IMG/VR virus record: IMGVR_UViG_3300037264_004862
Span: 1 to 64,000 of that record
Source: a virus
DNA length: 64,000 bases
Direction: 5' to 3' (one strand)
Below, piece after piece: positions 2,086-18,673 of the stretch (positions are counted from its first letter, which is position 1; every line of letters begins with the position of its first letter). Made by a program: the position numbers and the translations under genes. The notes beneath the pieces are model-generated. The model was given only the letters and a program-made list of their open reading frames with translations, was not told where the DNA came from and did not search any database.

Positions 2086-2262
2086 ATGGTTACCTTCTGA
2101 TCAAGGCTGAGGTTGGCTCGCTGCTTCAGAGGAATCAGCTCCTTCAGCGTGGTTTGGCGGCTTCGCCACGCGGCCCAAAGATTTATTGTTTCATGAAAGT
2201 AAACGGGGTGTCAAAGTCGAGTTTGCGACCTCGATCAGAAGGGATAAAATCGGGCCAATATT

Positions 2263-2538: not shown

Positions 2539-2602
2539 AATCAATAACCTTGTCGCTCAAGCGCTAGGCATTGAAGCAACGTGGTCGAGCCTCAACAGAG
2601 GC

Positions 2603-2722
2603 TTAATTTCGCACAATCCAGAACGCCAACCCGACAACCACGAGGGTGGCGAACAAAACCGTCAAACCAAACATCAAAGGTGGAATATCGGTCATCAAGA
2701 TATCCGACGTTCGCTGTCTCAT
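2603..2722 (-). CDS. single-helix membrane microprotein
   Basis: 39 aa. The ATG at 2720-2722 is preceded by GGATAGCGGG. Residues 15-36 form one transmembrane helix (GLTVLFATLVVVGLAFWIV), with a short polar N-terminus and a two-residue tail. The stop codon forms the start of a hairpin AGCCTC/GAGGCT (2588-2603) that may end the transcript. Function unknown; one of several such microproteins in this region. Confidence 0.55.
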   Translation of the reverse strand: MRQRTSDILMTDIPPLMFGLTVLFATLVVVGLAFWIVRN

Positions 2723-2804
2723 CCCGCTATCCTAGCACACGCGATGAACACGCGCCATCATGGTCTTAGTAGACCTCAAGTGGCTTGTCGCATCCACCTG
2801 AGGA

Positions 2805-3215
2805 TCATTCATAGTGAGGTCTTTTGGATGGCCAGTTCTCACCGGGCGTATCATCAACCTGAACTTCAAGAAGCACACCGCCAAGGACCGAATAGATATC
2901 ACCTTGGTTACGATCTTTGTGTTTCTCCAAGAGCTGCACCCTCACTTCGTCGCATTTCTCTTCGGTCGTCTCGATAGTCTCGACAAGCTCACCTGCGTTA
3001 TAATACCAAGCTCCTTCTTCGGGACCTCCGTAGTGACGGGTGACATCATAGACATTGAGATAGACAGGATGCTGAAGTGCATTTTCGATGGTGTTCTGGG
3101 CATTGCTGATATCGAAGCTAAGCTCATTGAACTTATCGGAACAATGGTCGTGTTTGGCGTAAATCATGAATTCCAAAAGGGCCTTAAGTTCGCTGCGGGT
3201 CATTTCAATGTTCAT
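2805..3215 (-). CDS. phage hypothetical protein with GGPEEG motif
   Basis: 136 aa; GGAGAATC precedes the ATG. The centre has HYGGPEEGAWYYNAGE, a motif I recognise from small uncharacterised phage proteins (GGPEEGGWWY type), then an acidic helix and a C-terminal segment ending with Asp/Pro-rich residues. Function unknown. It overlaps the upstream gene 3205..3555 by 11 nt. Confidence 0.65.
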   Translation of the reverse strand: MNIEMTRSELKALLEFMIYAKHDHCSDKFNELSFDISNAQNTIENALQHPVYLNVYDVTRHYGGPEEGAWYYNAGELVETIETTEEKCDEVRVQLLEKHKDRNQGDIYSVLGGVLLEVQVDDTPGENWPSKRPHYE

Positions 3216-3555
3216 GATTCTCCAAAATGGAATTCATCAAACTTTGGAACTGGCGACGCCCGAGATAATCTGAATGTGCCTTTATCAGTGAAATCTCTCC
3301 ACACTCAAAGGCGTTAGGTAATGCTAAATCGATATATTCACGATCTATATGACACTTTGTTGCATTTGCAACAAGTGGGTCAATTATGCAGAGACGAGTG
3401 CTTTCAACTCTAATAAGCGCCGGTAAGCTGCGGTCCATGCAATTACATCTAATCCAACCTTGCCAAACCCCTCTAAGGTATGGTTCCCATACGTAATGGG
3501 CACCAAGTTCCTTCACCCACTCGGCACAAATCGCCTGCAGATCGATCTCATCCAT
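3205..3555 (-). CDS. hypothetical protein, possible WL/DPxFF relative
   Basis: 116 aa. The N-terminus DLQAICAEWVKELGAHY resembles the L-I-x-x-W-L block of the array family; the C-terminus (SDYLGRRQFQSLMNSIL) keeps the final amphipathic helix but not the D-P-x-F-F residues. Membership is tentative. AAGG lies upstream of the ATG. Confidence 0.55.
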   Translation of the reverse strand: MDEIDLQAICAEWVKELGAHYVWEPYLRGVWQGWIRCNCMDRSLPALIRVESTRLCIIDPLVANATKCHIDREYIDLALPNAFECGEISLIKAHSDYLGRRQFQSLMNSILENHEH

Positions 3556-3563
3556 CGCAAAAC

Positions 3564-3671
3564 CTAACCTTCATTATATAGAACCGCCTCTGCCACGGCG
3601 TCGTCTCGCTCGAACACGTACTTCAGCACATTCTTGTCCGAACTCTCTTTGATGCGAACCTGATCCCACAT
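3564..3671 (-). CDS. 35-aa peptide resembling the N-terminus of a radical-SAM methyltransferase
   Basis: A strong ribosome-binding site (GAAGGAGATAAC) precedes the ATG. The sequence ...NVLKYVFERDDAVAEAVLY... resembles the strand-rich segment just before the first cysteines in RlmN-like radical SAM proteins, but the frame stops before any CxxxCxxC motif. It is either a truncated remnant still translated, or an unrelated peptide. Confidence 0.45.
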   Translation of the reverse strand: MWDQVRIKESSDKNVLKYVFERDDAVAEAVLYNEG

Positions 3672-3722
3672 GTTATCTCCTTCTAAGATTTTATGTACTT
3701 AAGAGGGCGCGATCAAAAAGAC

Positions 3723-3905
3723 TCACCGTTTCACCATAGTCCTAAGAATATCGGCAAGTGTCCGACATGCTCCAGCTTGAACCACTTGCTGTTTGGCAAG
3801 ATCTGAGCTCCAAGTCTTATTGGCCGAAATCCTGAGACTACGAGCCCGCAAAAGGGCCAGTCGCCTTGCTGAGCGCAGTCCTTCTTGGTACTGAGTCAAC
3901 TTCAT
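3723..3905 (-). CDS. small basic helical protein
   Basis: 60 aa, ATG preceded by GGAGGTGAAGC. Rich in Arg, Leu and Ala (for example RSARRLALLRARSLR) and probably all helical; possibly nucleic-acid binding. Its start overlaps the stop of 3902..4069 (ATGA). Function unknown. Confidence 0.6.
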   Translation of the reverse strand: MKLTQYQEGLRSARRLALLRARSLRISANKTWSSDLAKQQVVQAGACRTLADILRTMVKR

Positions 3906-4069
3906 GCTTCACCTCCAAGATCAGGTTGTGGAAAATCGTCTAGGCGGTCGATCAAATTGATGTCTCCACACGGACACTCCCAGAAAAGAGCAACGGCGGT
4001 AGGATCGTCATCAATTTGATACTCACTCTTGCATTTCCCACATATCACCTTTAAAACCTCATTTCCCAC
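3902..4069 (-). CDS. zinc-ribbon microprotein
   Basis: 55 aa from a GTG start preceded by TAGGAGATATT. It has CGKC and, 27 residues later, CPC (with WE before it), spacing typical of a small zinc ribbon, followed by an acidic tail. It overlaps 3723..3905 by ATGA and is probably coupled. Role unknown; such ribbons in phages often bind nucleic acid or host proteins. Confidence 0.6.
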   Translation of the reverse strand: MGNEVLKVICGKCKSEYQIDDDPTAVALFWECPCGDINLIDRLDDFPQPDLGGEA

Positions 4070-4093
4070 AATATCTCCTAGTAAGCGGTCATC

Positions 4094-4165
4094 TTACTCT
4101 ATAAAGGTTACACCAATAGTAATCTCTTCAAGGAACTGGACCACTAACTCGAACCAGAAAGCCAT
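4094..4165 (-). CDS. 23-aa hydrophobic/amphipathic peptide
   Basis: Short frame beginning MAFWFELVVQFLEE, ending in TAA, placed between two small genes with CCAGG upstream. Its regular hydrophobic pattern would suit a membrane-associated helix. It could be a chance frame. Confidence 0.3.
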   Translation of the reverse strand: MAFWFELVVQFLEEITIGVTFIE

Positions 4166-4170
4166 CAGTG

Positions 4171-4299
4171 CTACCTGGTAAGTACAAGGACCGTAGCAAG
4201 TGTGATCCCCAGCGCGATCAGCACCAGACAGACGACAGGGCTGTTACAGCCGATTCCCCCATTGAAATCGGCCCCGTTGCTATCTTCGCGACCCGGCAT
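4171..4299 (-). CDS. single-helix membrane microprotein
   Basis: 42 aa. GAAGGAG lies 6 nt before the ATG. A Gly/Asn-rich N-terminus is followed by one transmembrane helix (SPVVCLVLIALGITLATVLV). A GTAACACACC element (4314-4323) lies just upstream. The start lies inside the 3' end of the upstream gene. Function unknown. Confidence 0.55.
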   Translation of the reverse strand: MPGREDSNGADFNGGIGCNSPVVCLVLIALGITLATVLVLTR

Positions 4300-4507
4300 T
4301 CACGTCTCCTTCAGGTGTGTTACGCTTACTACAAGTACCACAACGTTTGAATGTCACGTTGCTGTCGCTGGGCGTGACACGGTATTTAGCCCCACCACAT
4401 GAAAGGCAGAAATCAATGCTATAAACTGTCACCGGTTTTACCATCCATACAGCGGCTGCGGTGCCGATTATAAAGACCAACACCGATCCGATTGCAAGCT
4501 TCCACAC
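4280..4507 (-). CDS. membrane-anchored zinc-ribbon protein
   Basis: 75 aa from GTG with AAGGA upstream. Residues 4-22 form a transmembrane helix; the remainder has CLSCGG and CGTCSK, two CxxC knuckles about 24 residues apart, a classic zinc ribbon that would face one side of the membrane. The recurring GTAACACACC element lies inside its last codons, so the element is not tied to a stop codon here. Confidence 0.6.
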   Translation of the reverse strand: MWKLAIGSVLVFIIGTAAAVWMVKPVTVYSIDFCLSCGGAKYRVTPSDSNVTFKRCGTCSKRNTPEGDVNAGSRR

Positions 4508-4510
4508 GTC

Positions 4511-4711
4511 TTAGTCCTTTTTCTCGAAGAGGTGCTTGACGAGATCGCCTTGGGGATGTGTGCCGTACCAGAGGCACAAAAGAAGCGTGATGCTCCACAG
4601 CGACCAGAACTTCCCCGAATTTGGCGCCACTGGGATCCCAACAGCCCACACGATGGTGCTCCATGCCATCCACAGAACCACCCCGACTGCGAAGCTCACC
4701 CATCTTGACAT
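4511..4711 (-). CDS. two-helix membrane microprotein
   Basis: 66 aa, ATG preceded by GGAGAAAAGT. Two hydrophobic helices (about residues 4-25 and 34-50) and a charged C-terminus ending FEKKD. A longer in-frame reading further upstream exists but lacks a ribosome-binding site and crosses a hairpin at 4760. Function unknown. Confidence 0.6.
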   Translation of the reverse strand: MSRWVSFAVGVVLWMAWSTIVWAVGIPVAPNSGKFWSLWSITLLLCLWYGTHPQGDLVKHLFEKKD

Positions 4712-4759
4712 ACTTTTCTCCTTAACTCCTTGGACCCACCACCTTAGTGAACCCGAGGA

Positions 4760-4777
4760 GGGGCTCCAGGGAGCCCC
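4760..4777 (-). terminator. intergenic GC hairpin
   Basis: GGGGCTC/GAGCCCC stem with a 4-nt loop between 4511..4711 and 4807..5016. No T-run follows on either strand, so it could be a weak terminator or an mRNA-stabilising hairpin. It resembles those at 1121 and 6429. Confidence 0.4.
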
Positions 4778-4806
4778 GAGAAGGAGGGAAACGCCTGCTT
4801 GGGTTT

Positions 4807-5016
4807 CTATTTCTTGCCGTTGCCAATGTTGAAGATCGCCCCGATGCCTATGAGAATCGAACCTACTACCAGACATGCGCCGATCAGCGCGAACGGAGCC
4901 CACAATGGGCACGTTATCCACCAGTATGACCATTGAATGATACCACCGAGTTTGAGCCCGAGAAACAAAAGAAACAAGAGACCCAATAAACCAACCCCAC
5001 CAGATCTTTCTGTCAT
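4807..5016 (-). CDS. two-helix membrane microprotein
   Basis: 69 aa; of two adjacent ATGs the second fits better with GGAGG five bases upstream. It overlaps the stop of the kinase-like gene. Two transmembrane helices (about residues 8-28 and 36-60) are joined by a Trp-rich loop. Ends NIGNGKK. Function unknown. Confidence 0.6.
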   Translation of the reverse strand: MTERSGGVGLLGLLFLLFLGLKLGGIIQWSYWWITCPLWAPFALIGACLVVGSILIGIGAIFNIGNGKK

Positions 5017-5507
5017 CATTCCTCCATGTGTCGATTAAAAGGAGCATCAAGAGAACCGTAATCGTAGATTACAGGAGTCCCATTCACCACACCCCAGTTT
5101 CGGCCGCAATAGGAACCGTAAATGTCCAGGAGATTATAGCGAACTTTGAGACTTTCGATCAGAGCTTGTATGTCAGGTGGAACGCAGTGCATCCATGGAT
5201 TTTCGAAATTGAGATAGCGCTGGGCCACCCAACTCCAATTCATGCCCATGACTTTACCACCATCAACCACTTCCGCAAAATGCTTACGGTCTTCATCCAT
5301 GAGGGTCTGCCAAATTTTAAATTCATTGGTCGACTGGTCCCACCTATTGTCATCGACACTTTCTTGAGTGATCTTGATGACAAGGTTCTTCACAAAAAGA
5401 ATTTTACGAGAGAAGCCACCCTCAGGTCGCAAAAGCCTTTCTTCGCCAGATTCACCGTCGATCAAGATGGTGTGATTCTTGAACCAGTCGTGAGCCGTGA
5501 CTTCCAT
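5016..5507 (-). CDS. kinase-like protein
   Basis: 163 aa, start chosen at the ATG after GGAGGGGCG. Features fit a small phosphotransferase fold: a KNLVIKI strand with Lys near residue 43, a conserved Glu in the next helix (NEFKIW), then near the end D-I-Y-G-x5-N-W-G followed by VIYDYG, which can be read as the catalytic Asp...Asn and the metal-binding D-x-G. It is much shorter than typical protein kinases (about 250 aa). Substrate unknown, function inferred only from these motifs. Confidence 0.55.
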   Translation of the reverse strand: MEVTAHDWFKNHTILIDGESGEERLLRPEGGFSRKILFVKNLVIKITQESVDDNRWDQSTNEFKIWQTLMDEDRKHFAEVVDGGKVMGMNWSWVAQRYLNFENPWMHCVPPDIQALIESLKVRYNLLDIYGSYCGRNWGVVNGTPVIYDYGSLDAPFNRHMEE

Positions 5508-5533
5508 TCGCCCCTCCAACACAAGAAGGTGTG

Positions 5534-5953
5534 TTACGATTTTACCATTAGATGTTTCATGTCGATATAAAAGTCACTCTGTGAACTGGCACGCTCGAAT
5601 CCAAAATTTTGGTACCAAGCAATGAGCTTGCCAACATTCCATGGTTCCGGATAAGCCACGCTCCTGAAGGGACAGGCATTTAAAGATAGTATGATCCCAA
5701 CATCTGCTGCGTTACGGCACATCATAACCATCGCCTCACGCCCACCTCCCTTGACCAAGGCCTGAATTGTGTGAATGTGGACCCGATTGATGCCGAACTC
5801 GTCGTCGGGAAAATTCGATAGTCTAATTTCGGCAATTGAAGGCTTCAATCCCCACGCCACAAGTGTCTTCACCGTAAGTAACCCGATGAACGCAAGATTC
5901 CGACAACACCCACTAATACCCAGAAAGTGTTCAGTAACAAACCAAAGCGCCAA
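5534..5953 (-). CDS. GNAT-like acetyltransferase
   Basis: About 139 aa. The C-terminal half shows a GNAT pattern: a strand INRVHIHTIQALVKGGGREAM with the Gly-rich turn of the acetyl-CoA loop, and a late IAWYQNFGFE, the usual neighbour-to-C-terminus signature. The start is uncertain: only TTG at 5953 is in frame near the upstream stop. It contains PDDEFG, matching a motif shared by several nearby proteins. Confidence 0.55.
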   Translation of the reverse strand: MALWFVTEHFLGISGCCRNLAFIGLLTVKTLVAWGLKPSIAEIRLSNFPDDEFGINRVHIHTIQALVKGGGREAMVMMCRNAADVGIILSLNACPFRSVAYPEPWNVGKLIAWYQNFGFERASSQSDFYIDMKHLMVKS

Positions 5954-5959
5954 CGATGA

Positions 5960-6385
5960 TCATACGCCTCTCCCAATCCCTGGAATTTCAACATCAAGTT
6001 TTATCCCTGTTGGCTTGAAAACTCCATAGGCTGCTGACCATAAAATTGCCGTTGGGATTCCACTTGCCTGTGAAGCTTTATGCATCCTCTGATGACAAGT
6101 TTTATGGCAGAGGTCGAGGTTGTCGACCGTGTTGTGCTTGCGGTCTTCATTGACATGATGAATGCAGATATTGTCTTCATCAACTTGAACGTGAGTGAGC
6201 GTGATGACTTCACGACACCAGTAACAAACGGGTCTGTGGATCTTGAGAAGCTTCTGGAGATGGAGTGTTTGATCAATGATACGCTGGACACCTTCTGTCT
6301 TAACTGGGTTGCCATCAAGACCAAACTTGTACTCGAACCAAGTAATAAACTCCTTCAGTCTCCTGTTGCGGTTGGGAAAATCCAT
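5960..6385 (-). CDS. HNH endonuclease-like protein
   Basis: 141 aa with GGAGGTGAC before the ATG. CYWC, then ICIHHVNEDRKHNTVDNLDL and C-x3-C-x3-H fit an HNH nuclease with a zinc-knuckle: paired His of the beta strand, Asn, and the final His. Such genes in phages are often free-standing homing nucleases or packaging-associated nickases. No intron is evident nearby. Confidence 0.75.
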   Translation of the reverse strand: MDFPNRNRRLKEFITWFEYKFGLDGNPVKTEGVQRIIDQTLHLQKLLKIHRPVCYWCREVITLTHVQVDEDNICIHHVNEDRKHNTVDNLDLCHKTCHQRMHKASQASGIPTAILWSAAYGVFKPTGIKLDVEIPGIGRGV

Positions 6386-6428
6386 GTCACCTCCGTTTCG
6401 GCCCTCGTAGGTCAAGGACCGGAAAGGA

Positions 6429-6449
6429 GCCCCTCCCAACTGGAGGGGC
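6429..6449 (-). terminator. hairpin between HNH gene and upstream gene
   Basis: GCCCCTCC/GGAGGGGC, 8-bp perfect stem with 5-nt loop, 24 nt after the stop of 6473..6664. On the minus strand TCCTTTCC follows; not a strong T-run. Probable terminator or processing hairpin. Confidence 0.5.
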
Positions 6450-6472
6450 AAAAGGCCTTAGCCCCGGCCCTC

Positions 6473-6664
6473 TCAAGTCAGCTCGGCGCTTTTCCACGAC
6501 ATCATCTCTAGGTTGGCCAAAATCATCCATCCAAAGAAAGCGATACGATGATAGGTCTTTCCACCCATGTCGATGGCGTGATACTGGAGATAAACCTCCA
6601 TAAGAGAACAGAGAATGAAAAAGAACACTATGATCAGCCCGAACACTCTCCTGGACGTCGACAT
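6473..6664 (-). CDS. two-helix membrane microprotein
   Basis: 63 aa. GGGGAGGAG precedes the ATG. Residues 7-26 and about 41-55 are hydrophobic. A GTAACACACC element (6684-6693) sits just upstream inside the end of the preceding gene. Function unknown. Confidence 0.6.
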   Translation of the reverse strand: MSTSRRVFGLIIVFFFILCSLMEVYLQYHAIDMGGKTYHRIAFFGWMILANLEMMSWKSAELT

Positions 6665-6667
6665 TCT

Positions 6668-6898
6668 TTAGCTCCTCCCCACAGGTGTGTTACGCCTGGA
6701 CCACGCCTTCTGTTCGATCATCCGCTCCCAAATGGCGGGAGGCTCGCCCTCAGGCGGGTTGACGCGGAGTGTCCGCTCGAAGACCGCCTTGCCCTCCTTC
6801 GCCTTGAAGGTCTGCACAAAATCACCGTTGTTGAGACGCCGCCCGCCAAGAAACGCGATGGCGAGCTGGACCGGGGCCGGACAACGCTTGAACAACAT
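6668..6898 (-). CDS. hypothetical protein
   Basis: 76 aa; AGGAGGACGTGGT precedes the ATG. Sequence includes LNNGDFVQTFKAKEG and FERTLRVNPPEGEPPA; no domain recognised. Its last codons contain the GTAACACACC element and the ribosome-binding site of the next gene. Confidence 0.55.
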   Translation of the reverse strand: MLFKRCPAPVQLAIAFLGGRRLNNGDFVQTFKAKEGKAVFERTLRVNPPEGEPPAIWERMIEQKAWSRRNTPVGRS

Positions 6899-6909
6899 AC
6901 CACGTCCTC

Positions 6910-7029
6910 CTAACTTAGGCCATCAATCTCATGTTTCCAAGCTTTCGGTGGATCGACGGGCAGCCCAGCCTCTAGGCTTTGCCATCCTGGTCCAACCTCG
7001 CCCGCCCCAGGCGCAACGGTGACAAGCAT
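6910..7029 (-). CDS. hypothetical microprotein
   Basis: 39 aa; the ATG immediately follows the upstream stop (TGAATG), and the stop leads into the ribosome-binding site of 6668..6898. Gly/Pro-rich, soluble. The tight fit between neighbours supports it; no family recognised. Confidence 0.4.
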   Translation of the reverse strand: MLVTVAPGAGEVGPGWQSLEAGLPVDPPKAWKHEIDGLS

Positions 7030-7155
7030 TCAAGTGCGCTGGTCAAGCCAGCACACACGATCTTGGCCCTCGTCGTAGAGGCCAACAATCACGGTCCCGT
7101 CCCTCGGGGCGATCTCCATTGAATGCCAGTCACTCAGTGGGTAAACGTGCCTCAA
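7030..7155 (-). CDS. APRDGT-motif small protein
   Basis: 41 aa from TTG, or about 29 aa from the ATG at 7117-7119. It contains WHSMEIAPRDGTVIVGLYDE, the W-x3-E-x-A-P-R-D-G-T pattern of a common small protein found in phages and bacteria; these have no known function. The match favours the longer form, because W lies upstream of the ATG. Confidence 0.55.
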   Translation of the reverse strand: MRHVYPLSDWHSMEIAPRDGTVIVGLYDEGQDRVCWLDQRT

Positions 7156-7173
7156 TCCTTAACTCGCAAAATC

Positions 7174-7368
7174 TTATCTGCTCTCAACCACCAAGACCAG
7201 GCGGGGCCGAAAATGTCGTCTCCGCTCAACCCATGGAGCAACTTTGTAATAGTGAAAGCTGTAGATGCTGCCGTCTACCACTCCGGGTAGAGGATCTTCT
7301 ACCTCAACAACCATTAGATTGACCATGTAGCCTTTGCATGGACGTACTTTATCACCAACCTTAATCAT
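7174..7368 (-). CDS. small beta-rich protein (KOW/SH3-like)
   Basis: 64 aa, start overlapping the upstream stop (TGATG) with GGAG upstream. MIKVGDKVRPCKGY then alternating hydrophobic strands resembles the small SH3-like fold of other proteins in this window (8627..8827, 51959..52648). Function unknown. Confidence 0.55.
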   Translation of the reverse strand: MIKVGDKVRPCKGYMVNLMVVEVEDPLPGVVDGSIYSFHYYKVAPWVERRRHFRPRLVLVVESR

Positions 7369-7715
7369 TCATGGAACTCCACATCGGAAATCTTAATAAG
7401 ATAGCCTCCACGAGATGCCAGTTGGATCAGAAAGGTACCTAACTTAGTTTCGATAGTGTCGGTGCAATCATCAGGGCTGGCTGGTGCCTCGATGGTGGTA
7501 AATTGCGGCAAAGGCCCACCAAGGATTCGCCATGTAACAGTTACTTTCCGCATCTTGGAGGCACCTTCCTTTGAATTTTCTCTCCCACCAGTCGATACTT
7601 CATCTCGACATCCTGGACAAAGAAGGTTATCTCCAAACTCCTGTCGCTGACGATGAAGCACGGCGAATACTTCGTAAAACTTTAGCCCGCACCCCGAGCA
7701 TTGGGCTTCTTCCAT
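7365..7715 (-). CDS. zinc-ribbon protein
   Basis: About 116 aa using the ATG at 7713-7715. The N-terminus has CSGCGLKFYEVF and, about 27 residues on, CPGCRDE: a two-knuckle zinc ribbon. After a polar linker, RKVTVTWRILGG begins a second, strand-rich domain; an internal ATG with a good upstream AAGGAAGG could also start that domain alone. Function unknown. Confidence 0.55.
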   Translation of the reverse strand: MEEAQCSGCGLKFYEVFAVLHRQRQEFGDNLLCPGCRDEVSTGGRENSKEGASKMRKVTVTWRILGGPLPQFTTIEAPASPDDCTDTIETKLGTFLIQLASRGGYLIKISDVEFHE

Positions 7716-7727
7716 GGGTCCACCCAC

Positions 7728-7910
7728 CTAACTGAGCCAACGTTCCTTTGAACGATGAGAAACCATCCACAGGACATAGCTCCCGAACAACAAGATCGTC
7801 CACATCGGTTGCGGGAACCTAAACTCGCTGGCCCAGCCAATGAACGTCAAGATAAGCGTTGTGAGCCACAGACAGAACGTGTAAGGCAAGAAACTACGCA
7901 CGGTGTCCAT
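7728..7910 (-). CDS. two-helix membrane microprotein
   Basis: 60 aa; overlaps the 3' end of 7894..8046, with AAGG next to the ATG. Two transmembrane stretches (about residues 9-27 and 35-50). Ends KERWLS. Function unknown. Confidence 0.55.
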   Translation of the reverse strand: MDTVRSFLPYTFCLWLTTLILTFIGWASEFRFPQPMWTILLFGSYVLWMVSHRSKERWLS

Positions 7911-8046
7911 CCTTGATGAAGCTCCAAATGATAGACGTCTCCGACTTCACGGCCTTCTTGAATTGTTTGATAATACTCTGCCTCGTTCTCTCCATCTTGG
8001 CTTCCTTCTGTTTGCGGCTGGTGAGCTTGCGTCTAAGTTTCGTCAT
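7894..8046 (-). CDS. small basic protein
   Basis: 50 aa with GGAGGTCATAGAG before the ATG. Very basic (MTKLRRKLTSRKQKEAK...), probably helical; could bind nucleic acid. Overlaps the next gene by 17 nt. Confidence 0.6.
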   Translation of the reverse strand: MTKLRRKLTSRKQKEAKMERTRQSIIKQFKKAVKSETSIIWSFIKDGHRA

Positions 8047-8048
8047 CT

Positions 8049-8330
8049 CTATGACCTCCTCGAAAGGTCGCGCAACACCCCATCGCCATCCGCCTTGAGG
8101 ATGAAGTTGGAGATGAGCATCTGCATCTGAAGGAGATCGCCCTTGATCTTGTTGATCTCGTAGATGAACTTGCTGAGATTCTTGGTCGAGAGACCGTGGT
8201 TGTGCTGATCGAACATCAGCTTGAGCACACGCTCATGAAGCGTGGTAGGCTCGGTGAGAATCATGAGTTCTTGATACGACTGCCTGAGACTGAACGCCGC
8301 GTTGCCTTTCTTGTCGCTGATGGTGCGCAT
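8049..8330 (-). CDS. helical hypothetical protein
   Basis: 93 aa; the ATG is preceded by TTTAGGAGGGAGACTTTG. Largely helical with heptad-like Leu/Ile spacing, so perhaps an oligomer. Its start overlaps the stop of the 20-codon frame upstream. No family recognised. Confidence 0.6.
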   Translation of the reverse strand: MRTISDKKGNAAFSLRQSYQELMILTEPTTLHERVLKLMFDQHNHGLSTKNLSKFIYEINKIKGDLLQMQMLISNFILKADGDGVLRDLSRRS

Positions 8331-8392
8331 CAAAGTCTCCCTCCTAAAATCTCTTCACAAAACAGAACCCCGATTACACTTAGCAGTTTCAT
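8330..8392 (-). CDS. 20-aa hydrophobic leader-like peptide
   Basis: AGGAGAATAAG precedes the ATG; the peptide starts MKLLSVIGVLFC and stops overlapping the next start. Good ribosome-binding site and coupling, but no signal cleavage product exists. It may serve as a translated leader for 8049..8330. Confidence 0.4.
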   Translation of the reverse strand: MKLLSVIGVLFCEEILGGRL

Positions 8393-8403
8393 CTTATTCT
8401 CCT

Positions 8404-8445
8404 TTATGGGCTATTCCACCATGGACAACGAGCCCGCGCCATCAT
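8404..8445 (-). CDS. 13-codon frame sharing the MMAR/MMAH start
   Basis: This short frame starts ATGATGGCGC and reads MMARARCPWW before stopping. Its DNA aligns without gaps to 2727-2762 and to the first codons of 10735..10908. It is either a remnant of that gene or a regulatory element; translation is unproved. Confidence 0.3.
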   Translation of the reverse strand: MMARARCPWWNSP

Positions 8446-8466
8446 GGCCTTGATGGATGTGTTACA

Positions 8467-8616
8467 CTAAAAAGTCTCGTCAAGAATGACCTGAATGACA
8501 CGACGGCTGCGCCCTTCCAAGATGAGATTCACCTTAAGACCATGCTCCTGAAGCATGAGCATGATGTTGTCGGCCTCCTTGAGGAGCTTCTTCTTGGTAT
8601 CAGAAGCTTCAAGCAT
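8467..8616 (-). CDS. small helical protein
   Basis: 49 aa from the ATG after AAGGAGAATCGC. A charged helix (KKKLLKEADNIMLML) leads to a basic strand segment. An ATGTGTTAC variant of the recurring element follows its stop. Function unknown. Confidence 0.55.
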   Translation of the reverse strand: MLEASDTKKKLLKEADNIMLMLQEHGLKVNLILEGRSRRVIQVILDETF

Positions 8617-8626
8617 GCGATTCTCC

Positions 8627-8827
8627 TTAAGGTAGCTTTTCGATCTGCGTATGAGCAACGGCGATGGAATAGCCAGAGTCAAGCGTTAGACGCCAAATCT
8701 CAGTGTTACCATGCATTCGATACATCTTGCTAAGAGTTCCAATTTCACCAATTTTGAACGCCCTGTCGCCGTACTGAAGCGTTCTGACGTCTTCAACAAG
8801 ACGTACTCTATCGTTGCGCTTCAACAT
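8627..8827 (-). CDS. small SH3/KOW-like protein
   Basis: 66 aa, GAGG upstream of the ATG. NDRVRLVEDVRTLQYG then FKIGEIGTLSKMY is typical of a small five-stranded barrel with a Gly turn; short barrels of this kind are common in phages and often unassigned. Confidence 0.6.
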   Translation of the reverse strand: MLKRNDRVRLVEDVRTLQYGDRAFKIGEIGTLSKMYRMHGNTEIWRLTLDSGYSIAVAHTQIEKLP

Positions 8828-8919
8828 AAAGCCTCATTTAAGGTCCCAGTACCATGTAGCAAAGAACCCATAAGCCTCTGTGCGCTCACCAACCTGAGCT
8901 CATAGGATCTGGAATCGAG

Positions 8920-9096
8920 TCATAAAACTTCCACCTGGATTGCGTCGAAGGCATCCCTGAGCAAATCGGCCTCATCAAGGAGGTGCACAGCATCGTCCAA
9001 GCCACCAGCATTTTTCAATGCTTTGGCTTCATCGATGCGCTGTTTCATGAGGCCGAGAAGAAATTGCTTGACATCAAGAATTCGGTCGATGGTCAT
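8920..9096 (-). CDS. small helical protein
   Basis: 58 aa; GGAGGAGAA precedes the ATG. It is an acidic, alanine/leucine-rich helical protein (KALKNAGGLDDAVHLLDEAD). No family recognised. Follows the Tat-like gene by 8 nt. Confidence 0.6.
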   Translation of the reverse strand: MTIDRILDVKQFLLGLMKQRIDEAKALKNAGGLDDAVHLLDEADLLRDAFDAIQVEVL

Positions 9097-9104
9097 TTCT
9101 CCTC

Positions 9105-9284
9105 CTAGAACTTGGAGTACCGACAGACGTTGTAACCGATTTTGGTGAGGTGCTGAGCTAACTGGTCGAGCAAATTAGCTCTTGACGAAACCAATGGTGA
9201 GAGCCCGGTCGCCGCGACTGCCATGGCCCCTGCACCTACAACGATCCTCTGCAGGAAAGTTCTGCGTGTTGGTCCTTCGTTCAT
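9105..9284 (-). CDS. small protein with twin-arginine-like signal
   Basis: 59 aa, GGAGGTGCC before the ATG. The N-terminus TRRTFLQRIVVGAGAMAVAA matches the R-R-x-F-L pattern of Tat signal peptides, followed by a weakly hydrophobic helix. The rest is only about 24 residues, so the product could be a signal-anchored peptide. A Tat route would require a host with that system; the alternative is an ordinary signal anchor. Confidence 0.6.
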   Translation of the reverse strand: MNEGPTRRTFLQRIVVGAGAMAVAATGLSPLVSSRANLLDQLAQHLTKIGYNVCRYSKF

Positions 9285-9310
9285 GGCACCTCCAAAGCTG
9301 TCTTATACGC

Positions 9311-9679
9311 CTAGATTTGGGGACGTTTCCGGTGAGCCAAGATACACCGGGCCACGGTTCTCACCTCGGCATCCGTGGCCTCTTGGAGAGCACGGGCGTA
9401 GAAGAGGCCGATGTCAATATCACCCACCTCGATCTCAGGATCGATATCAACAATCCCGCAGGCGCTCAAGGCATCCCCGTGAATGCCCTGGCGCTTAGCT
9501 AGTTCCTCATTGAATCGGGCAACCCCGACTCCGATAACTTGTGGTCAGTATAGACCGTACGCGACGATTGACCCGTTGAGAAGGAATTCTCCTTGGTAAG
9601 CCAGAACCCTCTCCAGCTCTTTGTTCTTAAGTTGCTCAAGCCCTTTGTTCAAAAGGGCCAGCCGAACAATACGCCTCAT
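9311..9679 (-). pseudogene. gene interrupted by an in-frame TGA
   Basis: Reading from the ATG at 9677-9679 (GGAGACACAGAA upstream), 44 codons run to TGA at 9545-9547. The same frame then continues 77 codons to TAG at 9311-9313 without a good new start. The first part is helical and basic; the second is acidic (IDPEIEVGDIDIGLFYARAL). Possible causes: a nonsense mutation, a read error, or programmed TGA readthrough. Other genes here use TGA as a normal stop, so global reassignment is unlikely. Confidence 0.5.
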
Positions 9680-9720
9680 TTCTGTGTCTCCTCTTACCTT
9701 CATCGCTTAACGGGTTGCTT

Positions 9721-9930
9721 TTACATGCACTTCTTGCAATTCTTGTGACTCTTGGGATGGGCTCCATGGACACAACACTTGTGGTGAGCTTCCGCTTCGG
9801 CTCTCTCGTGCTTCTTGAACTTGGCCTTCACCCAAGCCCACATCCCTCCAAGACAACCCAGCATGAGAACAGCCATTGCAGCCTCTTGCTGACAGAAATG
9901 AATCGGGATACCGAAAATGACGAAGTTCAT
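9721..9930 (-). CDS. membrane protein with Cys/His-rich tail
   Basis: 69 aa from the ATG after GGAGGGGTT. One transmembrane helix (about residues 18-34), then a charged stretch and HHKCCVHGAHPKSHKNCKKC, a metal-binding-like tail. A GTAACACACC element (9945-9954) lies just upstream. Function unknown. Confidence 0.6.
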   Translation of the reverse strand: MNFVIFGIPIHFCQQEAAMAVLMLGCLGGMWAWVKAKFKKHERAEAEAHHKCCVHGAHPKSHKNCKKCM

Positions 9931-10031
9931 AACCCCTCCATTTAGGTGTGTTACCTTCATTGGTCCATTACAGCTTTCTTGCTCCCAGTTCGCCTACTAC
10001 TTAATCGTAGATCAGCGCCTGCAAGAAAGCT

Positions 10032-10680
10032 CTAACGAGCCATAGAGCTATCTGCTCAGGCTCAACGCCCGAAGGCGGTTAAAATTGAACGGTCTTGGTT
10101 CATTACGGGATAGTGACTAAGCCCCATATTGGAGCCAACTAGCAGGAAGGCACGGTCAGTCTTTAACTGGCCTCGCCAAGGGAGCGACCCTTGGCTTAAC
10201 CTCGCTACCTGTCACTACCACCTAACGAGCCATAGAGGCTCAACGCCCGAAGGCGTGTTCAGCCGTTAACGCTGGCTGGCGGGGCCTTACGGTCAATAAG
10301 AGGTTATGCCCAGACCTCACCCCGTTTGTCGCTAGGACCTAAGGCTTTACTAGTCGGGGAAACCTAGTAAAGCCAAAGTGAAAGATGTGGCCTCATTTCA
10401 CCTCTTGGGAGTGTTAGGGGCCTCATGATCCCTCAAAAGCACCTCGGCCTCTATCCGTTTCCAGGTCGAGTCAGGGACCAACGCCGTTTCTGTTTAACAC
10501 CCAACCTCTATTCTGTATTGGGCGCAAAGAGCAAGTCACCTCGGGGCTGCCGAGCGGTGCGTGGAGCGAGCTGGCTAAGCCAGACCGTTAAGGTCCCCAA
10601 CGCACGTGTTGACGGGGAAGGAGGCTCCACCGGGAGGTACCTTCGCCCAAGCTCCACACAGGAGCAAGTCAAGCGGTGAA
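10032..10680 (-). ncRNA. candidate large structured noncoding RNA (RNA-2)
   Basis: The 775-base gap 9955-10734 has no convincing gene. It holds strong hairpins: 10343-10353/10364-10374 (11 bp), 10175-10182/10188-10195 (8 bp), a Cys-codon-free CTGGC/GCCAG stem near 10571, and others. A two-hairpin module occurs twice (10032-10077 and 10222-10255): GAGCC...GGCTC followed by CGCC-TTCG-GGCG when read on the minus strand. The c(UUCG)g loop, an unusually stable tetraloop, favours the minus strand, as does the direction of neighbouring genes. Length and setting near phage tRNAs recall large ornate phage RNAs such as GOLLD or ROOL, but I cannot show homology. Confidence 0.6.
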
Positions 10681-10734
10681 ACTCCAAAACCAACGTTACC
10701 GATGCATACTCCACCTCCTCGATTCCAAAGTGTG

Positions 10735-10908
10735 TTACCCTAAGATTTCAAAATGTGCAGGATTCGAAATAACTTCCGCCACTTCCGCCGAAAAATCATC
10801 GTCGACATGAAAGGTCTCTTGGGGAGGTTGCTCGGCGGCGAGGAACCAAATTTGATACCTCGCGTTCGTACCCCTATCCCACCACGGACGGTGAATATGC
10901 GCCATCAT
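10735..10908 (-). CDS. FHVDD-motif small protein
   Basis: 57 aa; the ATG overlaps the upstream stop (GCATGATGG). It begins MMAHIHRPWWDRG and contains ETFHVDDDFSAEV, a motif shared with three neighbours. The C-terminus (SNPAHFEILG) faintly recalls the D-P-x-F-F block. Function unknown. Confidence 0.5.
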   Translation of the reverse strand: MMAHIHRPWWDRGTNARYQIWFLAAEQPPQETFHVDDDFSAEVAEVISNPAHFEILG

Positions 10909-11114
10909 GCGCTTGGTGGCACCTGGTCGTAGAAGCTGGTAAGAGACTCGATGTCACAGGTACGAACGAATGAATCACTTCCCTCCACCAACCAAGCATC
11001 TGAGTGCTCGGGGTGTCTCTCTTTAAGGATAACCAGGCTTCCTAGGTTCAACCCATGCCCAGTTGAATCTGAGACGACCCCAACAACCATTCCAGGCACC
11101 GGATTTTGAATCAT
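10905..11114 (-). CDS. hypothetical beta-rich small protein
   Basis: 69 aa from the ATG after GAGGAGTGAAA. Gly/Val-rich strands (GMVVGVVSDSTGHG) and a segment DAWLVEGSDSFVRTC suggest a small barrel. Its stop overlaps the next start. Unknown function. Confidence 0.55.
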   Translation of the reverse strand: MIQNPVPGMVVGVVSDSTGHGLNLGSLVILKERHPEHSDAWLVEGSDSFVRTCDIESLTSFYDQVPPSA

Positions 11115-11116
11115 TT

Positions 11117-11431
11117 TCACTCCTCGCTGACTTCACTCTCCACAACTATAACACCCCAACCGTTAAGATCATCAACCATACCGAACTCGTCGTCGACATG
11201 AAACTCGGTAAGGGAGTCAGGAGGTGAACACCAACGACACAATCTGATTTCGACATCACATTCACGGTCAATGAGACATTCAGCCTTGTTGTGATACTTC
11301 TTAGCAACTAGGCGCTCGGCCTCATCTTGAGAAGGCTCATGTAAAAGAATTTCTATGAGGTGTGTGTTACTCTCTCCATAATCAACATCTCGCGGGTTCT
11401 TCCAAATTGCGTTCACAATCCAAACTTTCAT
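11117..11431 (-). CDS. FHVDDEFG-motif protein
   Basis: 104 aa from the ATG after GGAGGGAGC. MKVWIVNAIWKN starts a strand, the middle is a charged helix (EPSQDEAERLVAKKYH) with several Cys, and the C-terminal part has TEFHVDDEFGMVDDL. The layout (strand, helix, strands) might be a small ferredoxin-like fold. Function unknown. Confidence 0.6.
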   Translation of the reverse strand: MKVWIVNAIWKNPRDVDYGESNTHLIEILLHEPSQDEAERLVAKKYHNKAECLIDRECDVEIRLCRWCSPPDSLTEFHVDDEFGMVDDLNGWGVIVVESEVSEE

Positions 11432-11502
11432 GCTCCCTCCGAGCCGGTGTCCACGAAATGTTTCATGAGGAGGATCGAGAGGAGCAACATTAGTCTCCGC
11501 AT
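11428..11502 (-). CDS. 24-aa hydrophobic peptide
   Basis: GGAGGTTGTCC precedes the ATG; MRRLMLLLSILLMKHF is a short signal-like helix. The stop overlaps the start of 11117..11431, so it may be a coupled leader peptide. Confidence 0.4.
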   Translation of the reverse strand: MRRLMLLLSILLMKHFVDTGSEGA

Positions 11503-11551
11503 GGACAACCTCCTTGTAAAAAATTTTAGGTTCCTGGCAATTCAAGCAACT

Positions 11552-11665
11552 TCATTGGAGGCTAGACCCGTTGTTCTTGCAACTGGAGCATCCCGGGCAC
11601 TCGATCCAGGTCCAGAGGTCTTCCATCCAGACGAACCCGGCGCCCGAACAAACGTCTGCGTTCAT
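11552..11665 (-). CDS. zinc-finger microprotein
   Basis: 37 aa, TGATG overlap with the upstream gene. C-x-G-x-G-F-V-W followed by WIECPGCSSC matches a known kind of phage/bacterial mini zinc finger (C-x-G-x-G...C-x-x-C). Function unknown. Confidence 0.5.
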   Translation of the reverse strand: MNADVCSGAGFVWMEDLWTWIECPGCSSCKNNGSSLQ

Positions 11666-11964
11666 CACGGCGTGTGAAATACCTCGCATCCTTCGATGGT
11701 GAGGCCGTGGGTGCAGTCCCAACCCCGGTCACTCCAGCTGTGCTCCTTGCGGTGGGGCGCGTGGACGTGAACCGAGTTGTCCTTCATGAAGGCGATGGAG
11801 TACTCGGCCTCCTGAAGAATTGCCGCCAGCTGGATGAGGTCCGAAGCTGACGCCTGTCGGCCTTCGATGGTCACGACCCTGAGGTCGACATCTCCATCGA
11901 ATGACGTGTTTGGGACGAGCCCAAACCGTTTCGCCTGTTCAGCCACGAATTCTTTCGCGGTCAT
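11665..11964 (-). CDS. hypothetical protein
   Basis: 99 aa with GGAGGCAAA before the ATG. A helical N-terminus (TAKEFVAEQAKRFG), strands in the middle, and a His/Trp-rich section HVHAPHRKEHSW. No family recognised. A GTAACACAC element containing the upstream stop precedes it (11975-11983). Confidence 0.6.
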   Translation of the reverse strand: MTAKEFVAEQAKRFGLVPNTSFDGDVDLRVVTIEGRQASASDLIQLAAILQEAEYSIAFMKDNSVHVHAPHRKEHSWSDRGWDCTHGLTIEGCEVFHTP

Positions 11965-11979
11965 TTTGCCTCCTGTGTG

Positions 11980-12270
11980 TTACGCTTTCTTCAAGTGAAG
12001 TTTCAAGTGACGGATATAAACGTAAACTTGAGGTGAGTCCGGCTCAAAACCGTCATCGACATGGAAAACATCAAGATTGATGGAGGTAACGAGCTCAACC
12101 TTATATACGTAGCCTACTAAGAAGGGTGTTGCGAGGTCGATTGGGCCTTCGACTATACGGAGGGAGCTCCCATCAGGAATGTTTCTATACCAGTTGTCTA
12201 TCGAACTTTTCTCACAGACACAGCAACCTTCCTCGCATTTTGTCCAAATGACTAGGTCACCTGTCTTCAT
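11980..12270 (-). CDS. FHVDDGF-motif small barrel protein
   Basis: 96 aa; GGAGGCTTAACA precedes the ATG. MKTGDLVIWTKCEEGC starts a KOW/SH3-like barrel with a Cys cluster (C-x4-C-C-x-C), then LDVFHVDDGFEPDSP. Ends basic (HLKLHLKKA). Function unknown. Confidence 0.6.
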   Translation of the reverse strand: MKTGDLVIWTKCEEGCCVCEKSSIDNWYRNIPDGSSLRIVEGPIDLATPFLVGYVYKVELVTSINLDVFHVDDGFEPDSPQVYVYIRHLKLHLKKA

Positions 12271-12304
12271 TGTTAAGCCTCCAAATGTGAATATGACAGG
12301 TGTG

Positions 12305-12493
12305 TTACTCCGGGACCCCGATCGGCTCCTTGGGGAAGGCTAGCTCATACGTCAGGCTGAACAGGTGGTGGGCGCACCGCTCGATGTCGATGACTCTGTT
12401 GCTTGCTTTGACCATGTTTCCGGCTTTCATTTGTAGTAAGACTTCTTCGCACAGGAGCTTGATCTCTTCGATTCTTTGCTTGGCGGCGTCCAT
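12305..12493 (-). CDS. small helical protein
   Basis: 62 aa from the ATG preceded by TTGGAGGAAAC; a longer upstream reading crosses a GTAACACACC element and is not supported. Amphipathic helices with two Cys. The interval 12494-12681 upstream holds no convincing gene. Function unknown. Confidence 0.6.
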   Translation of the reverse strand: MDAAKQRIEEIKLLCEEVLLQMKAGNMVKASNRVIDIERCAHHLFSLTYELAFPKEPIGVPE

Positions 12494-12681
12494 GTTTCCT
12501 CCAACAAAATACTGAAGGTGTGTTACATCGAATGGCCTGAAATAATGTTTGTTGACGGAAAGGATGAGTGGAAACCATTTTAGGGGAAGCATTATGGCAT
12601 TAAGGTGGTTGGTGGGGAACTTTCGCCTGACCTCACCCTCCCACGAAACCCCTTTCCGCGCGTTTCCTTGGGGCTCCCCTT

Positions 12682-12864
12682 TTACTCGGGAAGTCTGGGG
12701 GCCTCCCAATCAGCCCCGATGAGGTCCAACGTCTCCATCAAATGCCCTGACTCCAAGGCCTCGTACCGGCCACACATGGCCCTGAGTTCATCAAGGATGG
12801 AAAGCAGAGAGCTCCCAAACTCATCATCGGCATGAAAGTTCTCTGGCATTGAAGGTCTGGGCAT
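12682..12864 (-). CDS. FHADDEFG-motif small protein
   Basis: 60 aa with AGGAGAGA upstream of the ATG. After a short Pro-rich start, ENFHADDEFGSSLLSILDEL and a helical remainder. Shares the F-H-x-D-D-x-F motif with neighbours. Function unknown. Confidence 0.55.
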   Translation of the reverse strand: MPRPSMPENFHADDEFGSSLLSILDELRAMCGRYEALESGHLMETLDLIGADWEAPRLPE

Positions 12865-12885
12865 TTTTGGGGTCTCTCCTAAGAA

Positions 12886-13320
12886 TTAAACTCTCTTCGG
12901 CTTCCGACCGATCGACACAACCTGAAATGGCTTGGAGCTCTTCATCCACTCAGCGTACGGCAAGGGGCCAGGCCTGAGACCGTCCAACACCGCATCAGGG
13001 TCGTAGACCATGCCATCGTGAAACGCAACGGCATGAGAGCAGCTGCAGAAGGTAACAAGCAAAATTCCGCGTCCACTCAAGTTTGGTGAGGCTGTGCTTG
13101 CGGGGAGAGGTAAGGCCCCCCGGAATAATTGCAACAGTTTGGTTGTCCACGGGAACAACTCCGCTGCTTGATCGTTCGCTTTAGTCAGACCAAGCGTCTG
13201 TTCTATGCGGTTGAACTCACGCTCAAGGTCCTCGTAGTCACGCTGGGACACGTCTTCTACAGCGCAGATCGCCGCAAGGTAGCATGCGTTGTTACGTGCA
13301 GACTTCTTAATGTCCTGCAT
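12886..13320 (-). CDS. putative papain-like cysteine protease fold protein
   Basis: 144 aa; TTGGAGGGGAGAC precedes the ATG. N-terminal NNACYLAAICAV gives a Cys at the start of a helix; later SHAVAFHDGMVYDPD gives His in a strand followed by Asp, the Cys-His-Asp order of papain-like peptidases. The family is not identified and activity is inferred. It lies just after the two tRNAs. Confidence 0.5.
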   Translation of the reverse strand: MQDIKKSARNNACYLAAICAVEDVSQRDYEDLEREFNRIEQTLGLTKANDQAAELFPWTTKLLQLFRGALPLPASTASPNLSGRGILLVTFCSCSHAVAFHDGMVYDPDAVLDGLRPGPLPYAEWMKSSKPFQVVSIGRKPKRV

Positions 13321-13353
13321 GTCTCCCCTCCAATGTGTGGTACCAAATTCAAA

Positions 13354-13429
13354 TGGTGCCTTGGGTGAGAATTGAACTCACAACTCCTTGGTTAAAAGCC
13401 AAGTACTCTACCAATTGAGTTACCAAGGC
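13354..13429 (-). tRNA. tRNA-Lys (anticodon TTT)
   Basis: 76 nt. Acceptor GCCTTGG/CCAAGGC, discriminator A and encoded CCA; D arm with GG; anticodon stem CTTGG/CCAAG with loop CTTTTAA; T arm GTGAG/CTCAC with TTCAATT. All parts are canonical. One base separates it from the upstream tRNA. Confidence 0.95.
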
Positions 13430-13430
13430 A

Positions 13431-13516
13431 TGGTGGACCTGGAGGGATTCGAACCCCCGATGTCTTGCGACGGCGGCTTATGAGGCCGCTGCTCTTGGCC
13501 ACTGAGCGACAGGTCC
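13431..13516 (-). tRNA. tRNA with CAT anticodon and long variable arm
   Basis: 86 nt. Acceptor GGACCTG/CAGGTCC, discriminator A, CCA encoded; anticodon stem GCGGC/GCCGC with loop CTCATAA, so anticodon CAT (Met, or Ile if the C becomes lysidine). The variable region is 14 nt with its own stem (GTC-GCAA-GAC), a class II feature normal for Leu, Ser and Tyr tRNAs. The D arm is class-I-like, while the variable and T arms resemble bacterial tRNA-Tyr. Confidence 0.9.
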
Positions 13517-13621
13517 GTGTGTGTTACGCTCTTGGGGGCCACTTACGTTATAGGAAAGCTCGAAGTCATCGTGGGGAGGGGAATCCTATAGAGGCTACCT
13601 GTGTGTTACATCGAAGTCAAA

Positions 13622-13846
13622 CATCTTGTAAGAAGTCTAAATTAAGACTTCAAGTTCAAGATGCGATAAAAGGTGGCAGGCCAGTTCCCTTGGCTTCAAG
13701 GGACACTCTTCTGAGGTCCTTCCTCACCTGCCACCCTCTCCTCCACTCCGGGTTCAGGCTCTTCCCTCCCCGGCCAGCTTTCAAAATATTTCGTGGGTGA
13801 GATATCGGTCACCCACGCCGGGTTCGGGTCATGAGCACCTACCCGG
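13622..13846 (-). ncRNA. candidate structured RNA segment (RNA-3)
   Basis: The gap between tRNA (13516) and 13884..14087 holds nested inverted repeats: 13622-13628/13657-13663 around 13632-13638/13645-13651; 13672-13680/13727-13735 (9 bp) around 13686-13692/13697-13703; 13793-13800/13809-13816 (8 bp); 13818-13823/13841-13846. On the minus strand the 9-bp helix is followed by TTTTAT. It may be one RNA, or a leader plus terminators. No gene is evident. Confidence 0.5.
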
Positions 13847-13883
13847 AAGATTTCTGACCACATGTGTGGTACATCAAATTTTA

Positions 13884-14087
13884 CTAAGAAAGTTTCTGTG
13901 AGGGGGCCTGATACTGCGTGATCGAGGTGTAGGTGTCCAGAGTCGGGTTGAAGCAGCCGCTGATTTGTTCGCTGACACGCTTCTTGGCCTTGATGATGGC
14001 CTTGCTCAGGGCCTCATTGGAGTCTTCTGCCTCCACCGATTCAGACACCCGAACCTTGAAAACCAGAGAGACGCTGAAGGATGGCAT
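13884..14087 (-). CDS. small beta-alpha protein
   Basis: 67 aa from the ATG after GGAGGGAAGAC. MPSFSVSLVFKVRVSESVEA then a helix (DSNEALSKAIIKAKKRV), like small dodecin or ferredoxin-like folds. Function unknown. Confidence 0.6.
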   Translation of the reverse strand: MPSFSVSLVFKVRVSESVEAEDSNEALSKAIIKAKKRVSEQISGCFNPTLDTYTSITQYQAPSQKLS

Positions 14088-14213
14088 GTCTTCCCTCCAA
14101 ATATGAAAGCAAGTAGAAAGCGGATGTTGCCGGAAGGATGCCAAGGTGAACGAAGTTCAGGTGTGGTACTGAAATGCCCTCTGAGCCCATCCAAGCGGGT
14201 GAGCTTAAAGGAC

Positions 14214-14235
14214 GGGGGGTCCTTGCGGACCCCCC
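14214..14235 (-). terminator. GC-rich hairpin terminator
   Basis: Perfect 9-bp stem GGGGGGTCC/GGACCCCCC; the minus-strand loop is GCAA, a GNRA tetraloop. It lies 26 nt beyond the stop of 14261..14707, after a GTAACACACC element. Followed by GTCCTTTAAGC, so only a short T-run. Confidence 0.6.
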
Positions 14236-14260
14236 ATCAGGAGCATCAGGTGTGTTACGA

Positions 14261-14707
14261 CTACTCCGCCTCGACCTCCTCGGCGACCTCCTCGGCGACT
14301 TCGGCGTCGGCCTCGGGCTTCGCGGCCAGCTGCTTGGCCTTGAAGTCCGCGAGGAGCTTCTTCTGGGCGTCTCGGGTCGCCTTGCGCGCCGCCGACTTGC
14401 AGCCCTCGCAGGTGCTCACCTGGAAGAGATCGCTGGTGAACACCTCGCGGGTCGCCTCGCACCCCTTGTCCTCGGGGTCCGTGCAGGTGATCGTCGCCAC
14501 CTGCTTGTTCTTGATCGCGTCGAAGCGCACGGAGCCCTTGATCACGTGCGGGTACTTCGCCTCGATTTCCGCCGCGCCCATCCGCCGCGAGCGACCCTCG
14601 CTCTTGATCGCGGACTTGAGCTGCTTGACCTGCGCCTCGCTCAGCCCCATCGACTTCGCCACGGAGTCGATGTCCTGCGAGGTCTTCGCGACCTGCGCGC
14701 TGTCCAT
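14261..14707 (-). CDS. Cys-containing protein with acidic tail
   Basis: 148 aa from the ATG after GGAGGTTGGC. N-terminal helices (VAKSMGLSEAQVKQLKSAI), then a central part with C-x7-C and CEGC (possible zinc site), a basic helix, and an acidic tail of EVAEE repeats encoded by a short GC-rich repeat. GC content is high even for this half of the window. Function unknown. Confidence 0.65.
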   Translation of the reverse strand: MDSAQVAKTSQDIDSVAKSMGLSEAQVKQLKSAIKSEGRSRRMGAAEIEAKYPHVIKGSVRFDAIKNKQVATITCTDPEDKGCEATREVFTSDLFQVSTCEGCKSAARKATRDAQKKLLADFKAKQLAAKPEADAEVAEEVAEEVEAE

Positions 14708-18600: not shown

Positions 18601-18673
18601 AGAGCGGGGCGCCCGAGTTGAACGGACATCTCCCCGATGGAATCAGGGTGCGTTGACGTTACGCCAGCCCCGC
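18600..18673 (-). tRNA. tRNA-like gene, probable Gly (TCC), atypical
   Basis: Acceptor GCGGGGC/GCCCCGC, D stem GCGT/ACGC, anticodon stem CCCTG/CGGGG (one wobble) with loop ATTCCAT, T stem GTCCG/CGGGC with TTCAACT. The cloverleaf is complete, but the D loop lacks GG, the discriminator is T and the tail is CTA instead of CCA. It may be a decayed tRNA marking an integration point. Confidence 0.55.

Follow-up and report, generated by a model that had tools for sequence, protein, structure and literature searches.

Positions 9955-10735 of the window analysed here (bases 1 to 64,000 of a record of 122,824 bases, from a bacterial virus known through environmental DNA only) raise the question of whether a stretch without an obvious gene gives rise to a large folded RNA and, if so, whether this RNA belongs to the GOLLD or ROOL type, which the original prediction found it to resemble while allowing for a new class. 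We conclude that the locus most likely makes a folded RNA, part of which consists of two copies of a single module. A number of large, abundant and unexplained RNAs occur in phages, and the RNA of this locus would add one outside GOLLD and ROOL.

A duplicated module with a maintained helix

The predicted duplication was confirmed: on the minus strand, to which all module coordinates refer, the module is present as copy B at 10095-10255 (161 nt) and as copy A at 9960-10077 (118 nt). Each copy reads, from 5' to 3', CGCC-UUCG-GGCG, UU, GAGCC...GGCUC, GUUAG, an 11-nt arm, an apical part, the second 11-nt arm and GUAAUGRACCAA, with the GAGCC/GGCTC element and the UUCG hairpin that had been proposed for each module present in both. 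Module B has its UUCG hairpin at 10244-10255, GAGCC at 10237-10241, UGGCUCGUUAG at 10222-10232, the long helix formed by 10211-10221 with 10107-10117, and the foot GUAAUGAACCAA at 10095-10106. The corresponding elements of module A are the UUCG hairpin at 10066-10077, GAGCC at 10059-10063 (accompanied by a 12-nt insert), UGGCUCGUUAG at 10032-10042, the long helix of 10021-10031 with 9972-9982, and the foot GUAAUGGACCAA at 9960-9971. The apical part measures 93 nt in module B versus 38 nt in module A, and in B it contains the anticipated 8-bp hairpin (10175-10195, arms 10175-10182 and 10188-10195, seen in the sequence). Apart from the 11-bp helix, the apical part, the insert in A and a single A/G change, the copies are identical. 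Exact repeats of 20 nt (10058-10077 = 10236-10255) and 16 nt (10032-10047 = 10222-10237) result, the former being the longest in the locus, compared with a maximum of 12 nt in 500 mononucleotide shuffles. A module of 118 to 161 nt is a natural test object, small enough to make, to probe and to use in a search for partners.

The 11-nt arms of the long helix differ between the copies and still pair at 11 of 11 positions in A and 10 of 11 in B. Between A and B, three base pairs are unchanged, seven carry double compensatory changes and one is broken in B. Two 11-mers drawn at random from this RNA form at least 10 pairs at a rate of ~0.0008 (200,000 draws). In a joint count over the UUCG stem and the complete helix, foot included, 97.9% of cells are paired, a level reached by 2 of 500 shuffles in what is a coarse control on two sequences only; sliding the register by 1-3 columns lowers it to 30-50%. 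The maintained pairing is covariation within one molecule, between its two copies; it rests on these two copies because no homologue was found in the collections searched, and the internal duplication thereby yields covariation evidence from a single sequence. Of the first interpretation, the structured RNA and its duplicated module are supported in this way.

The foot of the helix offers a choice of partners. UGGCUCGUUAG pairs with GUAAUGRACCA except for a C-A and a G-G mismatch, which fall in the same places in both copies, and this foot pairing competes with the local GAGCC-GGCUC hairpin, as the GGCUC of each module can pair either with GAGCC or with the GRACC below the long helix. In RNAfold predictions module B favours the extended helix; for module A the local hairpin appears in the minimum-energy fold and the extended helix in the centroid. 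Under the criteria applied, no kissing loop-loop interactions of at least 6 Watson-Crick pairs were seen.

Fold z-scores from dinucleotide shuffles place the structural signal mainly in the module region. The whole locus (9955-10735, minus strand) scored -4.46, with 0 of 40 shuffles as low, compared with -1.73 to +1.44 in five coding control windows. The two-module region, 9961-10255, reached -5.85 on the minus strand (0 of 100 shuffles as low), and its halves scored -4.49 (10078-10255, containing module B) and -4.33 (9961-10077, module A). Further upstream on the same strand, the predicted 11-bp hairpin at 10343-10374 has a perfect stem (arms 10343-10353 and 10364-10374) and a 10-nt loop, and 10330-10390 gave a z of -3.40 (2 of 100 shuffles as low). 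The 5' part as a whole (10256-10735, minus strand), which has no supported gene, shows no fold excess (z -0.73, 16 of 60 shuffles as low). The description "large" is half supported: ~300 of the 775 nt plus one hairpin fold beyond chance, and the other ~480 nt, taken together, are not unusually stable. The locus of the published ~800-nt RNA of phage ICP1, used as a yardstick, scored only -2.14 against -4.46 here, so the weak score of the 5' part is still compatible with a long RNA.

The same inverted repeats could act as DNA, in a binding, recombination or replication site. Being long, they would form in single-stranded DNA too, and the plus strand of 9961-10255 also beats its shuffles (z -4.32); this is less fold excess than on the minus strand, and the UUCG caps, as well as a G-U pair present in each copy, agree with an RNA made from the minus strand. 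We consider a DNA element very improbable. The RNA reading is further supported by the strand of the neighbouring genes, which is minus like that of the UUCG caps.

No ORF of at least 85 aa is present on either strand of 9955-10735, and the two shorter ones considered, of 68 aa (10508-10714, minus) and 84 aa (10425-10679, plus), have no Pfam match; the original prediction had named a strong match to a coding gene as evidence against it, and the ORFs of the locus gave no protein family match. Their codon scores of -0.021 and -0.007, respectively, lie below those of 20 hand-picked ORFs presumed to be genes (0.031 to 0.272, each scored when left out of training). "Gene-free" is a likely description of the stretch and an unproven one. 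Coding in 10256-10735 is not supported, though conceivable. A small protein gene for the 68-aa product, with a structured element of ~300 nt in its 3' untranslated region, would account for the 5' part without fold excess and for the AGGAGG near the 5' end (10714-10719, minus), which stands behind a nonamer repeat (described below) an arrangement also seen ahead of further small genes in the block. However, the 68-aa ORF starts at a GTG that overlaps this AGGAGG, and the well-placed ATG meets a stop after three codons (M-H-R-stop, 10696-10707, visible in the sequence, the whole feature spanning 10696-10719). The codon score of the 68-aa ORF is under that of every gene ORF, and it lacks a Pfam match, and we regard such a gene as unlikely.

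Relation to known large phage RNAs

Covariance-model searches gave no match to either family proposed. GOLLD (RF02032) was matched neither within 9800-10900 (E up to 5) nor anywhere in the record (E up to 10); in control genomes the same search gave matches in 5 of 14, none over the cut-off. ROOL (RF03087) likewise had no match, whether at the locus or over the entire record with E up to 10, a weak test as no control genome was matched. At gathering level the sole Rfam matches in the window were two tRNAs, nothing relevant appeared within 9800-10900 when E was allowed to reach 5, and the locus exceeded no family's cut-off, riboswitches included. Weak matches to MIR396, SNORD2, Ysr224 and TUG1_3 were far below their cut-offs and were treated as chance. 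The closeness to tRNAs that had been put forward proved loose: tRNA-Lys and tRNA-Met (13354-13516) lie on the same strand 2.6 kb upstream of the RNA, with several small ORFs between. A tRNA-Gly was called at 18602-18673 (minus) by ARAGORN and not by Rfam at gathering score.

PMC12286853 describes GOLLD as phage-borne, often near tRNA genes, with a strong 3' domain and a less conserved 5' part, and ROOL as large, phage- or prophage-borne and near tRNA islands; both form RNA-only cages whose use is unexplained. The GOLLD cage is a 14-mer. Set against this description, the locus RNA is like GOLLD in size range, phage carriage and a strong 3' domain with a weaker 5' part, and unlike it in having no covariance-model match and its nearest tRNA 2.6 kb off; a tandem duplicated module does not figure in that description of GOLLD. 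It is like ROOL, as characterised there, in size and phage location, again without a covariance-model match. Resemblance to the two families is confined to size, phage location and loose tRNA proximity.

Two other phage systems were considered. According to PMC7567579, ICP1 produces an abundant noncoding RNA of ~800 nt that is not tied to tRNAs and whose transcription is supported by RNA-seq, whereas that of the locus RNA is predicted; the ICP1 sequence (L063) gave no match to R1, a model of the module. Long noncoding RNAs of phage K are likened by their authors to GOLLD and ROOL in place and abundance, as stated in PMC9241854; the comparison here extends to a blastn search of 50,697 phage records, where nothing similar to the locus appeared.

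That blastn search of the locus returned only a 27-nt chance match. Among viral contigs, exact CGCCTTCGGGCGTTGAGCC occurred 0 times and the pattern TTGAGCCN{3,22}GGCTCGTTAG in 34 stretches, of which a single one was chosen by eye for follow-up (L040, 4600-5560, minus); it shares only words at chance level with the locus and has no R1 match. That stretch, from an unrelated viral contig, is ORF-poor and contains several hairpins. The pattern TTGAGCCTN{0,16}ATGGCTCGTTAG was found in two stretches of genome contigs, one inside an open frame and one at the end of such a frame, and both were rejected. Over 58 sources and L063, R1 recovered its two source copies plus one chance match (E 0.79). The neighbouring proteins at 9721-9960 and 14261-14707 have no relative in the viral contigs, and no description of the RNA or of the nonamer was found in the open PMC literature. 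As the covariance models were not matched, we place the locus among large phage RNAs in a broad sense only: it is most likely an orphan structured phage RNA of the general GOLLD/ROOL kind and a member of neither family.

Flanking nonamers and possible roles of the RNA

The RNA is bordered by a repeated nonamer. GTA[AC]CACA[CT] has 16 matches in the 122,824 bases of the record, all on the minus strand, all at 4323-14258 (span 4315-14258) and one of them with a final T; with up to one mismatch, GTGTGTTAC has 23 matches in the window versus 10.1 expected. These nonamers (GTRMCACAC) sit at or near gene borders, before ribosome-binding sites and often with the TAA stop of the upstream gene within them, and one stands 2 nt before tRNA-Met. 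At the 5' border of the RNA, GTAACACAC occupies 10730-10738 (minus), its TAA being the stop of the upstream ORF 10735-10908. A second GTAACACAC follows directly after the RNA (9946-9954, minus) and precedes the ribosome-binding site of the next ORF, 9721-9930 (minus), which codes for 69 aa from the ATG at 9930, with a hydrophobic stretch, a His/Cys-rich end and no family match. Three mutually similar stretches (repeat D1) are found at 8445, 10908 and ~2733 (minus strand), two of which read as ORF starts of the MMA[HR]..[RC].PWW type.

The nonamer may be either a promoter-like start or a signal for RNA processing, and in each case it would provide a handle on expression of the phage block. No promoter-like site was found on the minus strand in or near the locus, and no terminator-like site between 10738 and 9700. 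Complementarity of the RNA to the nonamer extends to at most 7 nt, against the GTACCACAC variant. Nine contigs carried a nonamer followed by a Shine-Dalgarno pattern, none with a similar nonamer series or with similarity to the RNA beyond chance. Integron attC sites carry GTTRRRY. By eye, neither GTTAG nor the nonamer fits an attC site or a phage nick site (consensus as given in PMC3517423).

We suggest, with moderate confidence, that the locus specifies a phage noncoding RNA, made from the minus strand and with a two-module 3' domain, which works as a stand-alone, trans-acting scaffold with a constant junction as its docking surface. The RNA would be transcribed together with a block of small accessory genes, and the flanking nonamers (10738 and 9954) probably mark its ends, exactly or approximately. 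In each of the two paralogous modules of the 3' domain, a UUCG-capped hairpin and the constant junction are placed at the base of a long helix, which may change in sequence as long as it stays paired. Presented twice, the junction could be the surface on which a protein, or a second molecule of the RNA, docks. The duplication, the conserved flanks, the maintained pairing and the nonamers are seen in the sequence, whereas transcription, the ends, action in trans and docking are inferred. Points against this reading are the 5' part without fold excess, the failure to find a homologue in the collections searched or a promoter-like or terminator-like site on the minus strand, and the absence of the RNA from a related phage (below).

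The main rival is a cis-acting leader of the 9721-9930 gene, in which the modules would be tandem sensor domains, comparable to tandem riboswitches, that control access to the ribosome-binding site. This reading stays alive because only about 25 nt separate the end of module A (9960), just ahead of GGAGGGG and the ATG, from the following start codon; furthermore, predicted folds allow GGAGG-GGUUA to pair with UAACC-G-CCUUC, which comes from the foot and UUCG hairpin of module A. Such a sequestering pairing was matched by 18 of 200 shuffles of module A and 64 of 200 of the whole RNA, however, and a nonamer (9946-9954) separates the RNA from the gene. The lack of a terminator-like site and of an Rfam riboswitch match also speaks against a leader, which we treat as possible, at a tentative level.

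A bolder version of the scaffold reading would make the RNA a new class of large phage RNA outside every Rfam family, with the duplicated docking module driving self-assembly or assembly with phage proteins. GAGCC strands freed by the alternative pairing could then bridge modules or molecules, and the nonamers would be processing or start signals that release both the RNA and the adjacent tRNA. We think this combination unlikely.

The 15-kb end of the record

The record codes for a DnaE-like polymerase, a UvsX-like recombinase and a DnaB-like helicase, as well as tail sheath, baseplate and Volactin-like proteins, which together indicate a contractile-tailed phage. The DNA polymerase has one relative, at 24%, and the Volactin-family (actin-like) protein at 71335-72612 of the record (E 2.5e-56) shares 37% identity with one from an uncultured phage of 595 kb. 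One related phage was found, G010 (125,263 bases), whose Volactin is 75% identical and which shows inverted synteny with 42-122.8 kb of the record. The RNA-bearing 15-kb end has no counterpart in this relative: the RNA is absent (R1 gave no match either) and GTRMCACAC has 0 matches. The RNA is therefore dispensable for this type of phage. At the corresponding end, 1-6000, the relative carries a tmRNA (1983-2329) and 11 Rfam tRNAs.

GC content is 0.51 in 1-15 kb versus 0.38-0.40 in 19-122 kb, with an abrupt shift at ~14.9-15.1 kb in both GC (from about 0.64 to 0.38) and tetranucleotide profile; a further GC-rich island occurs at 17.7-18.7 kb. The boundary at ~15 kb may reflect either a misassembly or an accessory block or recent acquisition. 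If the end was misassembled from another phage, the RNA would be real and its neighbourhood not, an explanation that is compatible with the other readings. It is consistent with the higher GC, the distinct tetranucleotide profile, the confinement of the nonamers to 4-14 kb with none in the other ~108 kb, and the absence of anything syntenic in G010. Against it stands the peptide motif FH[VA]DD[EDG]F, which recurs in six otherwise different small ORFs, four of them in the block (window 10812, 11203, 12066 and 12837, minus) and two in the G010-syntenic part (record 68088 and 69908, plus), and which does not occur in G010 itself. We view a misassembly as conceivable and on balance doubtful. In other contigs, the FHADDEF pattern was found in one, within a different protein.

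A second gene-poor stretch of the 15-kb end, 2180-2610, folds far more stably than its shuffles, with a z of -9.14 on the minus strand (0 of 60 shuffles as low) and -6.45 on the plus strand. It contains 20-nt arms at 2311-2330 and 2428-2447, has no Rfam match, and probably represents a further structured RNA within this phage block.
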